A stretch of DNA of 54,395 nt from positions 1-54,395 of the forward strand of contig MFJU01000025.1 of the NCBI GenBank assembly GCA_001779315.1. The letters are read 5' to 3'. Each line of letters opens with the position of its first letter. Within the stretch, counting starts at the first letter, position 1. Of this stretch, positions 33,891 through 41,407 are shown in pieces. The stretch comes from Candidatus Gottesmanbacteria bacterium RIFCSPLOWO2_01_FULL_42_22. GTDB taxonomy: Bacteria > Patescibacteriota > Microgenomatia > 2-02-FULL-39-11. The translations under genes and the position numbers were made by a program. The notes under the pieces are model-generated. The model was not told the origin of the DNA and did no database searches. It was given only the letters and a program-made list of their open reading frames with translations.

Positions 33891-34538
33891 ATGATCCAGG
33901 CTAAATCCTTATTGAAATTTAGAGGGATTAAACATTTTTTCCTGAACAGTGAAGAATCAGTTTCAGAAGAATTTGACGAGGTAATCAATTCTGCATTTAT
34001 CTCTGAACAGGTTCACGGTTCGCGGATACAAAAAACTGACAGCCGGACATTTTATAAAGACTGTGACGGCTTGCTGTGCGAAAATAAAAGTACACTTCTG
34101 GTAAAAACCGCTGATTGCCTGCCGGTTTTTTTTTATTCAGCGCATAAAAAAACTGTCGCCGCTGTTCATGCCGGATGGCGGGGATTATCAAAAGGCATAA
34201 TGACAGAAACTATAGAAATATTTCGCCAAATGGGAATTGAAGCAGCTTCTTTAATTGCAGTTATCGGTCCGCATATCGGATCGTGCTGTTATCAGGTCAG
34301 CGCCGATTTAGTTAATAAATTCGGAAAAATTATTGCGGATACGGACTTTTACCAAAAAAAAGACTCTGATTATTATCTGGATTTATCAGCCATAGCCCGA
34401 TATCAACTGCAAATGGCGGGAGTTAAAGCGGCTAACATTGAAGATATGCAGGTTTGCACTTGTCATAATCTTGAGTATGCTTCTTATCGAAGGACAAACA
34501 GCCGGGAACGAAATATTTCCCTGATCAGTCTTTTATGA
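33891..34538 (+). CDS. pgeF: Peptidoglycan editing factor PgeF (YfiH, laccase-domain family)
   Basis: 215 residues. FISEQVHGSRI (about 37-47), VKTADCLPVFF (about 72-82), VHAGWRGLSKGI (about 91-102) and IGPHIGSCCYQV (about 124-135) supply the conserved His/Cys zinc site of the family, and CTCHNLEYASYRR closes it. In E. coli the protein removes wrongly added L-Ser from the MurC product. Its position immediately before murC (four-base overlap) fits this quality-control role well. Confidence 0.88.
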   Translation: MIQAKSLLKFRGIKHFFLNSEESVSEEFDEVINSAFISEQVHGSRIQKTDSRTFYKDCDGLLCENKSTLLVKTADCLPVFFYSAHKKTVAAVHAGWRGLSKGIMTETIEIFRQMGIEAASLIAVIGPHIGSCCYQVSADLVNKFGKIIADTDFYQKKDSDYYLDLSAIARYQLQMAGVKAANIEDMQVCTCHNLEYASYRRTNSRERNISLISLL

Positions 34539-35947
34539 AAAAAAGAGCTTATCTTGTCGGTATCAAGGGTGTGGCGATGACAGCTTTGGCGGTTTACCTT
34601 AAAGAATCCGGATGGGAGGTGGCCGGTTCAGACGTAATGGAAGTTTTTTTTACCGACCAAATTCTCACTGCCAGGAGAATCCCGATTAAAACAGGTTTCC
34701 GCAGGGAAAATATCACAGCCAAATATGATTTGGTAGTTGTAACCGGCGCTCATGGAGGAATGACCAATATGGAAGCCATCAGGGCAAAAGAATTGGACAT
34801 ACCTGTTTTTATGCACGGGGAATACCTGGGGCTAATAATGGATAAATTACAGGGGATTTCAGTAGCCGGCTGTCATGGCAAAACCACTACTTCATCCATG
34901 ATAGCCTGTATGTTGGCTAATGCTAAACTGGATCCTTCATACGCTATCGGCACCGCTTATATTAACGGTTTGGGAGCAGCCGGACATTACGGCCGGGGAA
35001 AATATTTGGTGGCTGAGGCTGATGAATATGTGACTTGCCCCAAAACAGACACTACTCCCAGATTTTTATGGCAGAATCCAAAAGCAGCAGTCATTACCAA
35101 TATTGAATTCGACCATCCGGACGTTTACGGAAACCTTGATGACGTGGTTGAGGCATATTTGCAGTTTGTGGGGAATTTGAGGAAATCCGGTGGATTTTTG
35201 GTTGCCTGCCTGGATGATGCGGAAGTTTCCAACCTGCTTCCCCGCATAAAAGATATTAAAACAGTTAGCTACGGTTTTTCAAAAGAAGCCGATTATCAAA
35301 TTGCCAGTTTCAAGATCCATAAAGGCCTATCCAGAATGAATATTAAAGTTGAAGGTAAAACAGTGGGAAAATTTACGGTTTCTGTGCCCGGAAAACATAA
35401 CCTCTTAAACGCGGCAGCCTCGATAGCTGTGTGCCGCCAGTTTTGCCGCTTGTCATGGAAAGAAATCCGTAATGGTTTGAAGACATATACCGGCAACAAC
35501 CGCAGACTGGAAAAAATTTTCGAAAAAGATAGGTTAAGCCTTTATGATGATTATGCCCACCACCCCTCAGAAATTTCGGCAACCGTAAATTCCGTCAGGG
35601 AATGGTTTCCTAAAAAGCGGATTCTGGTTATCTTTCAGCCGCATACTTTTTCCCGGACAAAAAGACTGCTTAACCGATTTGCCAAAGCTTTAAGTTTGGC
35701 AGATTGGGTTATGGTAGCGCCAATATTCCCTTCTGCCCGCGAATCATTCGATCCGACTATAACTTCCGGCATTTTGACAGAGAGAATCCTTAAGGAAAAA
35801 GGCCAGGCGACTTCCGTTAAAAATAAGGATGAGGCCATAAAACTTTTGCAGAAGACTGTCAAAGCCGATGATTTGATTATTACCATGGGAGCCGGCAATT
35901 TGTATCAGTGGCATGAGAGTATCTGTCATTTGCTGGAGTCTATATGA
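34535..35947 (+). CDS. murC: UDP-N-acetylmuramate--L-alanine ligase MurC
   Basis: 470 residues, with the full three-domain layout unlike MurE and MurF here. N-terminal YLVGIKGVAMTALA (about 5-18) binds the UDP-sugar; VAGCHGKTTTSSM (about 109-121, Lys116) is the ATP loop; VAEADEY, NIEFDHPDVY and YDDYAHHPSEI (about 335-345) are MurC-specific. It adds the first stem-peptide residue. Four-base overlaps with pgeF upstream and murB downstream. Confidence 0.94.
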   Translation: MKKRAYLVGIKGVAMTALAVYLKESGWEVAGSDVMEVFFTDQILTARRIPIKTGFRRENITAKYDLVVVTGAHGGMTNMEAIRAKELDIPVFMHGEYLGLIMDKLQGISVAGCHGKTTTSSMIACMLANAKLDPSYAIGTAYINGLGAAGHYGRGKYLVAEADEYVTCPKTDTTPRFLWQNPKAAVITNIEFDHPDVYGNLDDVVEAYLQFVGNLRKSGGFLVACLDDAEVSNLLPRIKDIKTVSYGFSKEADYQIASFKIHKGLSRMNIKVEGKTVGKFTVSVPGKHNLLNAAASIAVCRQFCRLSWKEIRNGLKTYTGNNRRLEKIFEKDRLSLYDDYAHHPSEISATVNSVREWFPKKRILVIFQPHTFSRTKRLLNRFAKALSLADWVMVAPIFPSARESFDPTITSGILTERILKEKGQATSVKNKDEAIKLLQKTVKADDLIITMGAGNLYQWHESICHLLESI

Positions 35948-36948: not shown

Positions 36949-38283
36949 ATGGAATTTTTTAAGATAAACGGCGGCCGCCAACTAAAAGGGGAAATTAAAG
37001 TATCAGGAGCCAAAAACGTGGCCATGAAAGTAGTATTAAGCGGTTTGTTGACTAATGAAGCGGTTGAAATCAGTAATATTCCCCTGATTACTTCTGTTGA
37101 GGGAACTGCTGAATTGGTGAGATGTCTAGGTGTTAAAGTCGTTAGTCGCCCGAATAACACTTTGACGATTAACGGCAGCGGTTTGAAATCGCATACCGTG
37201 CCTTTAGAAATGGGAGGGTTACTACGGACCGCCACGATGGTAATGGGGCCTCTTTTAGCTAGATTTGGCAAGGCGGTGGTACCTAACCCCGGAGGCTGCC
37301 GGCTGGGAAAGCGTCCGGTCGATTGGCATATTGAAGGGTTAACCAAAATGGGAGCGCGTATTAAATACGACGAAGGTTATTTTTATGCGCAAGCGGATAA
37401 ATTAAGAGGTACCAGATTCCGCTTTCAAAAAAACAGCCACACCGGTACCGAAACCATGATGTTGGCCGCTGTTCTGGCTGAAGGAGAAACGGTGATTGAA
37501 AATGCAGCCATGGAACCGGAAGTTGATGATCTGATAATACTTTTACAGGGGATGGGAGCCAGGATTAAGAGAGGTAACGGTAAAACAATTATCATTGAGG
37601 GAGTTAAAAAACTTTATGGAACTGATTTTACTGTTATGCCCGACAGAAATGAAGCGGTCACTTTTGCCATAGGCGCAGTAGCCACGGGCGGTGATTTGGT
37701 TATTCATGGAGCAAGGAAGCGGGATTTAACTGCTTTCCTTGAAAATTTGGAAAAAGTCGGGGTCGGTTTTAAAGTATTGGATGAGGAAACGGTCAGATTT
37801 TACTCTAGCGGTAATAAAATCAGACCCTCAAAAATCGTCACCGGTGGGCACCCGGGCTTTATGACGGATTGGCAGGCGCCCTGGACTCTTTTGATGACAG
37901 AGGCAAACGGAATCTCGACCGTCCATGAAACAGTTTTTGAAGACCGTTTCAGCTTTGTCAACGAATTAGTCAAGATGGGTGCGGATATCGAGGGTTTTAC
38001 ACCCGAAGTCAAAAATCCGGAAAAGGTTTATAATTTTAATTGGTCGGACCGCAGAGACGGAAATTATCAGGCAATCAGAATTAAAGGCGGAAATCCTCTT
38101 CATGAAGCTTTTTTGGAAATGACTGATTTAAGGGCCGGAGCTACTCTTATCCTGGCCGCGCTTTGCGCTTCCGGTGAGAGTATAATTCATGGTATAGAGC
38201 ATGTGGACCGCGGTTATGAAAAGATTGATAACCGTTTAAGAAAAATCGGGGCATCAATTACCAGAATGGAGGAATTAATCTGA
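36949..38283 (+). CDS. murA: UDP-N-acetylglucosamine 1-carboxyvinyltransferase MurA
   Basis: 444 residues. KVSGAKNVAMKVVL (about 18-31) is the substrate-binding start. NPGGCRLGKRPVDWHIEGL (about 113-131) contains Cys117, the equivalent of the fosfomycin-reactive Cys115 of E. coli, so the enzyme should be fosfomycin-sensitive. PDRNEAVTFAIGA and the TDLRAGATLILAAL end match EPT-type enolpyruvyl transferases. It catalyses the first committed step of peptidoglycan synthesis. Its stop codon overlaps the probable CTG start of the next gene. Confidence 0.95.
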   Translation: MEFFKINGGRQLKGEIKVSGAKNVAMKVVLSGLLTNEAVEISNIPLITSVEGTAELVRCLGVKVVSRPNNTLTINGSGLKSHTVPLEMGGLLRTATMVMGPLLARFGKAVVPNPGGCRLGKRPVDWHIEGLTKMGARIKYDEGYFYAQADKLRGTRFRFQKNSHTGTETMMLAAVLAEGETVIENAAMEPEVDDLIILLQGMGARIKRGNGKTIIIEGVKKLYGTDFTVMPDRNEAVTFAIGAVATGGDLVIHGARKRDLTAFLENLEKVGVGFKVLDEETVRFYSSGNKIRPSKIVTGGHPGFMTDWQAPWTLLMTEANGISTVHETVFEDRFSFVNELVKMGADIEGFTPEVKNPEKVYNFNWSDRRDGNYQAIRIKGGNPLHEAFLEMTDLRAGATLILAALCASGESIIHGIEHVDRGYEKIDNRLRKIGASITRMEELI

Positions 38284-39596
38284 AAGACATATTCGCTTTG
38301 CTTTTAGCCGGCGGGGATTCGACAAGGATTTGGCCCATACAGTACAAACTGCTCGTAACTTTTTTCGGGCAACCGATAATTTTGCATTCGTTAAACCAGC
38401 TTTACCGCAAAGGCATCAGAAATTTTATCATCGTCTCGTCAAGGGAAAATAAAAATGTTTACCAAGGTTTGAATTTTCCCAAAGAGGCAAAAGTCAAAAT
38501 AGTGGTGCAGAAAGACCAGACCGGTATGGCAGGCGCTATTTTATCGGCGGCAGCTGAAATTGCCGGTAAAAAAATCCTGGTGGTCGGTCCCGGCGATATC
38601 GTTGAAGATTACCTCATTGAAGAGTTTGGGCAGCTTTATAAGAGAGATCCTGAAGCGGCCATGGTCGGTAAACATTTGGAAGAGTATTTTCCCGGAGGGT
38701 ATCTCAAGGAAGAAAACGGCATCATTACCGGGATTATCGAAAAACCGAAGCCTGAGGATAGGATCGGCAATTTGGTCAATATCGTCATGGATTACTGGCG
38801 CAGTTCCTCTGCATTATTAGAAGCTTTAAATGAAGTAGAGCCTTTTGGGGATGACCGCTATGAAAGAGCTAAAGAAATTTTAATAAAAAAAGGCACGGTT
38901 ATTAAATTATTGCCATATAACGGATACTGGGGCTTCCTTAAATACCCCTGGCATTTATTGTCCATAAATGATTATTTCCTGGCGGGTATTAAAAAGAATT
39001 ACGGTAAAGTGAAAATTTCTGAAAGCGCCTGCCTTTCAGGCGAGATTATTCTTGAGGACGGCGTGACCATCCTTGAAAATGCCAAAATTGTCGGACCGGC
39101 CTATATCGGGCGTAACAGCCTGATTGGCCAAAATACCCTGATTCGCAATTCACATATAGGGGAAGGAGCAATTGTGGGCTTTGCCACGGAAATTGTCAGA
39201 AGTTATGTTTCAGCCAACTGCTGGTTCCATCATAATTTTATCGGCGATTCCGTCATTATGGACAATACTTCATTAGGTGCCGGCGCGATATTGGCTAACT
39301 ACCGTCTTGATGGAGGGGTAATCAAATCAAAGGTAAATAAGCAGTCAGTTTCAACCGGCAAAACCAAATTGGGCGCGGTCATCGGCCGTAATTGCCGCAT
39401 CGGCGTCAACAGTTCCCTCATGCCCGGAGTGAAAGTGGGCAGTGACTGTTTTATCGGCTCAGGCATTACTTTGGATTCCGATCTTGCCGACGGACAATTT
39501 GCCTCATTTAAAAAAGGCAGTTACACGGTGGAAAAAAATAAAATTAAACTCCCGAACAATGCCATGCAAAAAAATTTACGGGCTTTGAAATATTAG
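38280..39596 (+). CDS. GlmU-like sugar-1-phosphate nucleotidylyltransferase with hexapeptide domain; probable CTG start
   Basis: 438 residues if started at CTG 38280. GGAGGA (38268-38273) is a strong ribosome-binding site exactly six bases before this CTG, which overlaps the murA stop as CTGA in the way ATGA does elsewhere; it yields KDIFALLLAGGDSTR, a complete first strand. TTG 38298 would start inside that strand and has no such site. The pyrophosphorylase loop reads GGDSTRIWP instead of GGxGTRLxP. The C-terminal 200 residues are hexapeptide repeats (for example YIGRNSLIGQNTLIRNSHIG). Lying between murA and glmS it probably makes UDP-GlcNAc, like archaeal-type bifunctional enzymes. Confidence 0.78.
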   Translation: MKDIFALLLAGGDSTRIWPIQYKLLVTFFGQPIILHSLNQLYRKGIRNFIIVSSRENKNVYQGLNFPKEAKVKIVVQKDQTGMAGAILSAAAEIAGKKILVVGPGDIVEDYLIEEFGQLYKRDPEAAMVGKHLEEYFPGGYLKEENGIITGIIEKPKPEDRIGNLVNIVMDYWRSSSALLEALNEVEPFGDDRYERAKEILIKKGTVIKLLPYNGYWGFLKYPWHLLSINDYFLAGIKKNYGKVKISESACLSGEIILEDGVTILENAKIVGPAYIGRNSLIGQNTLIRNSHIGEGAIVGFATEIVRSYVSANCWFHHNFIGDSVIMDNTSLGAGAILANYRLDGGVIKSKVNKQSVSTGKTKLGAVIGRNCRIGVNSSLMPGVKVGSDCFIGSGITLDSDLADGQFASFKKGSYTVEKNKIKLPNNAMQKNLRALKY

Positions 39597-39598
39597 AT

Positions 39599-41407
39599 AT
39601 GTGCGGAATATTCGGATATATCGGAAAAGGAAAGAATGTCCCCCAACTGGTTTTAGCAGGACTAAAAAGCCTGGAATACCGCGGTTATGACTCCTGGGGT
39701 ATAGCTTCACTGGATAAACAAGGCAGGATAAGGATAAAGAAAAAAACCGGCAAAATCGGAGAAAATAATGTGGAAACTTTGCCCGACAATGGTATGGCTT
39801 TGGGACATACACGCTGGGCTACCCACGGCGGAGTCACCGTTGCCAATGCCCATCCCCATCTGGATTGCAGCGGTAAAATCACAGTAATTCATAATGGCAT
39901 AATTGAAAATTATCTGGAGCTGAAAAAACCCCTGATTAAAAAAGGCCATATATTCCGTTCAGAGACTGATACAGAGGTCGCTGTCCATTTGATAGAAGAT
40001 ATACTGGCTGATCATAAAAAGAATTCCGTTAAGACGGTAAAAGAAGACTTTGCTGAAAGTGTCAGATTGGCTTTTAAGAAAATGAGCGGACTGAATGCCA
40101 TAATTGTTATGGAAGCCGGTAGTCAAGTCTTTGTCGCAGCTAAAAACGGCAGTCCGTTAACAATCGGCCGGGGAACAGTTCAAAACGAAGAAAATTTACT
40201 GGCTTCAGATGCACATGCGATTCTCCCCTTTACCCGAGATCTCTATTTTATGGAGGATGATGAAGTGGTTACTGTCGGCCGGAAAGAAATTACTGTCCGG
40301 AAATTAGCAGACGGTACAAAGAAGCAAATAAAATTCCAGCAGGTCAATTGGCAGATTCGGGAGGAAGTAAAGGGTAAATTTACTCATTTCATGCTGAAGG
40401 AAATTTATGACCAGATAAAAGTATTGCAATCGGTGGCAAGTGCCGATAAGGTTGAACTTTCAAAATTGGCGGCCCTTATTGCCAAATCTTACGGTACTTA
40501 TATGATCGGCTGCGGTACGGCAGCTTATGCCTGTTTGGCCGGTACTTATATTTTTTCCAAAATAGCCAAAAAACACGTCAATTTCTCCATAGCCAGCGAA
40601 TTCGGATATTTGCTTGATTTTTTGACAAAGCAAAGCCTGGTTATCGGTTTATCGCAATCCGGTGAAACTATTGATCTTTTGGACAGTTTAAAAAAAGCCA
40701 AGGAAAAAGGAGCAACCATCGTCGCCCTGGTTAACGTGCTGGGTTCCAGCCTCTATCGTCTGTCAGATCATAAATTACTTCTCCAAGCCGGATCGGAAAA
40801 AGCGGTCGTATCAACTAAAGCTTTTACCGCTAAATTAGCTTATCTTATGATGCTGGCTTATATCTTGGCCGGTAAGGCAGAATTAGGAAAGAATTATTTA
40901 CTGAAGGCAGTACAGGCAGTCGAGGCCATTTTAAAGTCAGACTTCCAACAAAAAATAATTAACTTAGCCCAAAAATTAGCTTCCCGTCAGCATATTTATC
41001 TTATTGGCCGGGGTATTTCCTATCCGATAGCTTTGGAATCTGCCCTTAAAATTAAGGAAGCATCCTATATCCATGCTGAAGGATTTGCCGGAGGGGAATT
41101 AAAGCACGGAGTAATCGCTCTGATTGAAAAAAACACCCCCTGCATCGGTTTTTTGCCTAATGATGAATCATATAATGATACCCTGTCGGGACTGATGGAA
41201 ATGAAATCCCGGGGAGGCATGATAATCGGAGTAAGTTTCCGCCATCACGAAATATTCGATGAATATCTGCCGGTTTCTGACTGCGGCATAGCTTCAGCCA
41301 TACCCAATGCCGTTGCCGGTCAACTTTTAGGTTACTATTTGACTGTCCAAAAAGGTGTCGATCCTGACAAACCGCGCAACCTGGCCAAATCAGTGACCGT
41401 CAAGTAA
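39599..41407 (+). CDS. glmS: Glutamine--fructose-6-phosphate aminotransferase (isomerising)
   Basis: 602 residues. CGIFGYIGKG at the N-terminus leaves Cys2 as the catalytic residue of the glutaminase domain after Met removal; LEYRGYDSWGIA, HTRWATHGG (about 72-80) and AHPHLD are typical. Two SIS domains follow (QSGETIDLLDSLKKAK, about 355-370; GRGISYPIALESALKIKEAS, about 474-493) and the end DKPRNLAKSVTVK is diagnostic. It makes glucosamine-6-phosphate, feeding the GlmU-like enzyme and MurA encoded just upstream. Confidence 0.96.
   Translation: MCGIFGYIGKGKNVPQLVLAGLKSLEYRGYDSWGIASLDKQGRIRIKKKTGKIGENNVETLPDNGMALGHTRWATHGGVTVANAHPHLDCSGKITVIHNGIIENYLELKKPLIKKGHIFRSETDTEVAVHLIEDILADHKKNSVKTVKEDFAESVRLAFKKMSGLNAIIVMEAGSQVFVAAKNGSPLTIGRGTVQNEENLLASDAHAILPFTRDLYFMEDDEVVTVGRKEITVRKLADGTKKQIKFQQVNWQIREEVKGKFTHFMLKEIYDQIKVLQSVASADKVELSKLAALIAKSYGTYMIGCGTAAYACLAGTYIFSKIAKKHVNFSIASEFGYLLDFLTKQSLVIGLSQSGETIDLLDSLKKAKEKGATIVALVNVLGSSLYRLSDHKLLLQAGSEKAVVSTKAFTAKLAYLMMLAYILAGKAELGKNYLLKAVQAVEAILKSDFQQKIINLAQKLASRQHIYLIGRGISYPIALESALKIKEASYIHAEGFAGGELKHGVIALIEKNTPCIGFLPNDESYNDTLSGLMEMKSRGGMIIGVSFRHHEIFDEYLPVSDCGIASAIPNAVAGQLLGYYLTVQKGVDPDKPRNLAKSVTVK

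Follow-up and report, generated by a model that had tools for sequence, protein, structure and literature searches.

A probable CTG start codon in a GlmU-like gene that overlaps murA in a Candidatus Gottesmanbacteria genome

The gene for a GlmU-like protein that follows murA in Candidatus Gottesmanbacteria bacterium RIFCSPLOWO2_01_FULL_42_22 is probably translated from a CTG codon at position 38280, at which an ancestral ATG would have been mutated and a strong Shine-Dalgarno sequence, together with coupling to murA, would help ribosomes to begin. The window, by which we mean the whole stretch of 54,395 nucleotides that was analysed, is one contig of a 1.42 Mb draft genome that is 93% complete, and the features discussed here are collected in Table 1. 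The junction between the two genes, read directly, is CCAGAATGGAGGAATTAATCTGAAAGACATATTCGCTTTGCTTTTAGCC, and in it the murA stop and the CTG share the four bases CTGA (38280-38283). A preliminary description of this DNA had pointed to the overlap, to the six-base spacer between GGAGGA and the CTG, and to ATGA junctions elsewhere in the same operon; each of these is present in the sequence, the ATGA junctions at 34535-34538 and 35944-35947.

Table 1. Coordinates of the features at the junction of murA and the GlmU-like gene, and of the next gene of the operon
Feature	Position	Strand	Remarks
murA (UDP-N-acetylglucosamine 1-carboxyvinyltransferase)	36949..38283	+	stop TGA 38281-38283; TIGR01072, 465 bits, above the cut-off of 392.7
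Shine-Dalgarno GGAGGA	38268..38273	+	within the last murA codons; six-base spacer to CTG 38280
CTG, inferred start codon of the GlmU-like gene	38280..38282	+	CTGA with the murA TGA; the ATG of homologues aligns here
GlmU-like bifunctional sugar-1-phosphate nucleotidylyltransferase/acetyltransferase, 438 aa	38280..39596	+	PF00483 and hexapeptide repeats
TTG, first in-frame standard start codon, judged an internal Leu	38298..38300	+	without a Shine-Dalgarno sequence; zero residues before LLAGG
glmS (glutamine-fructose-6-phosphate transaminase), next operon gene	39599..41407	+	TIGR01135, 592 bits, above the cut-off of 418.05

The GlmU-like protein joins a nucleotidyltransferase to a left-handed beta-helix. 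Its best family match is TIGR03992, the archaeal-type GlmU (residues 6-396), at a score of 231.2 bits that falls below the curated cut-off for membership (292.1). The closest solved relatives are PDB 5z09 and 2ggo (E about 1e-42), dual sugar-1-phosphate nucleotidylyltransferases which we take to be ST0452 of Sulfolobus tokodaii, an archaeal-type GlmU. That two-domain protein is alike over nearly its whole length and has the shorter N-terminus, with residue 6 of our query aligned to residue 3 of the chain. The GlmU of this murA-glmS operon is closest to these archaeal-type enzymes and not to classical bacterial GlmU. Homologues are common in the class, with matches at E <= 1e-60 in 104 of 374 genomes in a class-wide search, and a comparison with plasmid records gave zero matches. 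Several homologues (L014 of G013, and those of G101, G201, G229, G231, G273 and G337) carry one or two in-frame stops, and may be pseudogenes or assembly errors.

Comparison with homologues makes it almost certain that the start position of the gene is CTG 38280. According to the listing of open reading frames, the frame is open from 38232 to 39596, and upstream of the CTG it holds no ATG, GTG or TTG. In all 22 homologues whose N-terminus could be read (one of them, L023, by eye) the gene begins with ATG. Among the 21 that were measured, this ATG precedes the LAGG/LAAG motif by six residues in 13, seven in 4, three in 3 and five in 1, and CTG 38280 sits exactly six residues before LLAGG, in the commonest register. 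The junction shows what is expected of a CUG-initiated gene, namely a CTG at the homologous start position where a credible standard start is absent and a GGAGGA at proper spacing, as well as the NTGA form of a four-base-overlap gene pair.

Translation could alternatively begin at TTG 38298, leaving the codons just after the CTG as an untranslated relic. This TTG is the first in-frame standard start and would be the choice of gene callers limited to ATG, GTG and TTG, which would shorten the protein by six residues. We nevertheless consider such a start very improbable: no Shine-Dalgarno sequence was found upstream of it, it would leave zero residues before the motif as against 3 to 7 in the 21 measured homologues, its counterpart in the same-genus relative G001 is internal to the gene, and, judged by the alignment with 5z09/2ggo, it would cost the protein part of its first strand. 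The start position is strongly supported by the homologues, the Shine-Dalgarno sequence and the register, and by how poor a start this TTG would make, all of which bears out the preliminary description both in its proposal of CTG 38280 as the probable start, giving KDIFALLLAGG, and in its objections to the TTG as lacking a ribosome-binding site and cutting the first strand. The two starts predict different N-terminal peptides, (f)MKDIFALLLAGGDSTR or KDIFALLLAGGDSTR from the CTG and MLLAGGDSTR from the TTG. An ATT at 38274 was rejected as a start because it touches the Shine-Dalgarno sequence and leaves no spacer. Fusion of MurA to the GlmU-like protein by frameshifting was also rejected, given that each relative's gene has its own ATG, and no slippery heptamer was seen by eye.

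The single same-genus genome compared was G001, a Gottesmanbacteria MAG whose GlmU-like protein is 66% identical to that of the window, and whose match has the same position and identity as that of Candidatus Gottesmanbacteria MAG GW2011_GWA2_43_14. G001 has GGAGGACAATACATG in the register of CTG 38280, and the junctions align as GGAGGACAATACATGAAA in G001 versus GGAGGAATTAATCTGAAA in the window. The check that the preliminary description had suggested, whether related genomes carry ATGA or CTGA here, thus finds ATG in each relative, as part of an ATGA in the nearest one. The alignment with G001 stays in frame over codons 38283-38297, which show synonymous third-base changes (ATA/ATT, GCT/GCA), as would be expected if these codons were translated. 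At the place of TTG 38298 G001 also carries a TTG. In G001 (L008, on G001:C1) the murA TGA lies 27 bases before the ATG of the GlmU-like gene, whereas murA of the window reads on to the CTGA; the spacing is otherwise identical. GGAGGA is kept in G001 though it lies outside the murA frame there, so that coding constraint does not account for it in that genome, which argues for a role as a ribosome-binding site. Strong Shine-Dalgarno sequences also precede the ATG in several other homologues, for example L013, L014, L020, L026 and L027. The Shine-Dalgarno sequence before the GlmU-like gene is ancestral and not a compensating change, a point against translation from the CTG.

To place the junction in its genomic setting, we compared, in stretches, about 958 kb of this genome (around two thirds) with about 1.49 Mb of G001 (72 kb of it N). 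The survey of starts and the count of split genes used reciprocal best ORF pairs that did not overlap one another, which kept out the noise of antisense ORFs; there were 663 such pairs, and 649 could be used. In 441 pairs the two genomes clearly share a standard start, which in this genome is ATG in 390, GTG in 26 and TTG in 25. CTG 38280 is unique among the 649 in combining a near-cognate codon facing ATG, a strong Shine-Dalgarno sequence and no standard start nearby. Habitual use of CTG starts across the genome was rejected on the basis of this single case in two thirds of the genome.

Shine-Dalgarno sequences of five or more bases precede only about 7% of the 441 clear starts, and GGAGGA belongs to one of the strongest classes in this genome. 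Such sequences are scarce altogether: 368 of the 441 starts have no four-base core within the tested spacing, which implies that most genes start by another mode. Where GGAGG does occur before starts in this genome its spacing is 3-14 bases, mostly 5-10. At internal CTG codons GGAGG lies 4-10 bases upstream in 34 of 3632 cases (0.9%), which we take as the chance background; strong sequences of five bases or more mark about 7% of confirmed starts, so that the arrangement at 38280 is more than chance would give. Four-base overlaps are common, numbering 52 among the clear starts (48 ATGA and 4 GTGA), and the CTGA is thus the usual junction with one base altered.

The most serious alternative is that the organism has ATGA and an ordinary ATG start, the C at 38280 having come from a mistake in consensus or assembly or from a variant carried by a minority of the metagenome; the preliminary description too had named a single-base error, or else a strain-specific mutation, as the alternative. 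The relatives all have ATG, and the change is an isolated one-base difference and the sole case in 649 pairs. With an assumed rate of consensus errors between 1e-5 and 1e-4 per base, one expects some 0.04 to 0.4 altered start codons in a genome. Against this, the frequency of CTG among annotated starts given in PMC11497404, 0.024%, which agrees with the preliminary description's remark that CUG initiation is rare in bacteria, would correspond to about 0.3 true CTG starts per genome of this size, comparable with the rate of error. The assembly also looks clean, with split genes at 5 of the 663 ortholog references versus 7 in G001, a count that gauges indels and stops rather than substitutions and in which at least two of the 5 adjoin masked runs of N. 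On G000:C10 (minus strand, reverse-complement offsets 966-2312) two overlapping ORFs correspond to a single ORF of the relative (84-86% identity), a pattern that suggests an error of the frameshift or indel type. What favours a real base is the strong Shine-Dalgarno sequence: errors striking at random would hit a gene with such a sequence only about 7% of the time, and a tolerated CUG needs such a context. We therefore regard an error as unlikely, though by some way the leading rival, and on the evidence of sequence context are fairly confident that the C is real.

On the preferred reading, that of translation from CTG 38280, the ancestral ATG would have become CTG by one A-to-C substitution within this species or strain, and the initiator fMet-tRNA would read the new codon. 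The strong GGAGGA would aid initiation at a poor codon, and ribosomes that come to the end of murA, at the TGA within the overlap, may aid it further by termination-reinitiation. IF3 is present in this genome. It is by inference that we take the base to be real, the CUG to serve as a start in the cell and coupling to make its use more frequent. Counting against translation from the CTG are its occurrence in one assembly only, its being a single case in the two thirds of the genome compared, and the weakness of the codon: as PMC11497404 reports, citing earlier measurements, CUG is the weakest NUG start, with about 0.86% of AUG efficiency in E. coli, a level of expression that would be low for a wall-synthesis enzyme. 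Output of the GlmU-like protein may accordingly be reduced relative to MurA.

The same weakness, and the fact that the change is lineage-specific, could instead suggest a real allele that has lost its start, so that the gene is largely silenced and a beginning pseudogene. We give this very little credence, as the remaining frame is intact over 438 codons at the identity to G001 given above, the Shine-Dalgarno sequence and the overlap are intact, and the gene has murA before it and glmS after it in an operon for wall synthesis.

CTG 38280, read as a start, is unusual but has precedents. The rep gene of FIB replicons (F, pO157 and P307 plasmids) has a CTG start proven by N-terminal sequencing and mutation, and databases mistakenly place its start at a standard codon further downstream (PMC11983097). 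Like the gene in the window, it combines a CTG start with a good ribosome-binding site (PMC11983097). The rep CTG, however, is kept across FIB replicons and is thought to hold the initiator protein low, whereas the putative CTG start described here stands by itself, in a chromosomal gene for an enzyme. In Listeria monocytogenes, changes of the rsbW start from ATG to ATA or ATT lowered translation and did not abolish it (PMC13068326). There too a one-base change from ATG to a near-cognate codon struck the downstream gene of an overlapping pair, rsbV-rsbW, which overlap by 17 bp (PMC13068326). Those changes were selected under acid stress and measured with reporters, and both codon and overlap differ from ours. 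Termination-reinitiation at four-base overlaps is discussed in PMC10666635; the geometry of such ATGA overlaps is the same as at this junction, which has CTG in place of ATG or GTG.

The CTG start is probably real, though a small matter, a single base peculiar to this genome. More tentatively, and with the balance somewhat against it, the CUG start could have become fixed in this one lineage of Patescibacteria, in a gene for wall synthesis, where the strong Shine-Dalgarno sequence and the overlap would make it tolerable, and it may lower the enzyme relative to MurA. Should the C prove to be an error, the result would be merely a correction to one assembly. If it is real, a phylum whose translation has hardly been studied experimentally gains a natural CUG start that is well defined, and the strong Shine-Dalgarno sequence with the CTGA overlap would offer a context for testing whether termination-reinitiation relaxes the choice of start codon.
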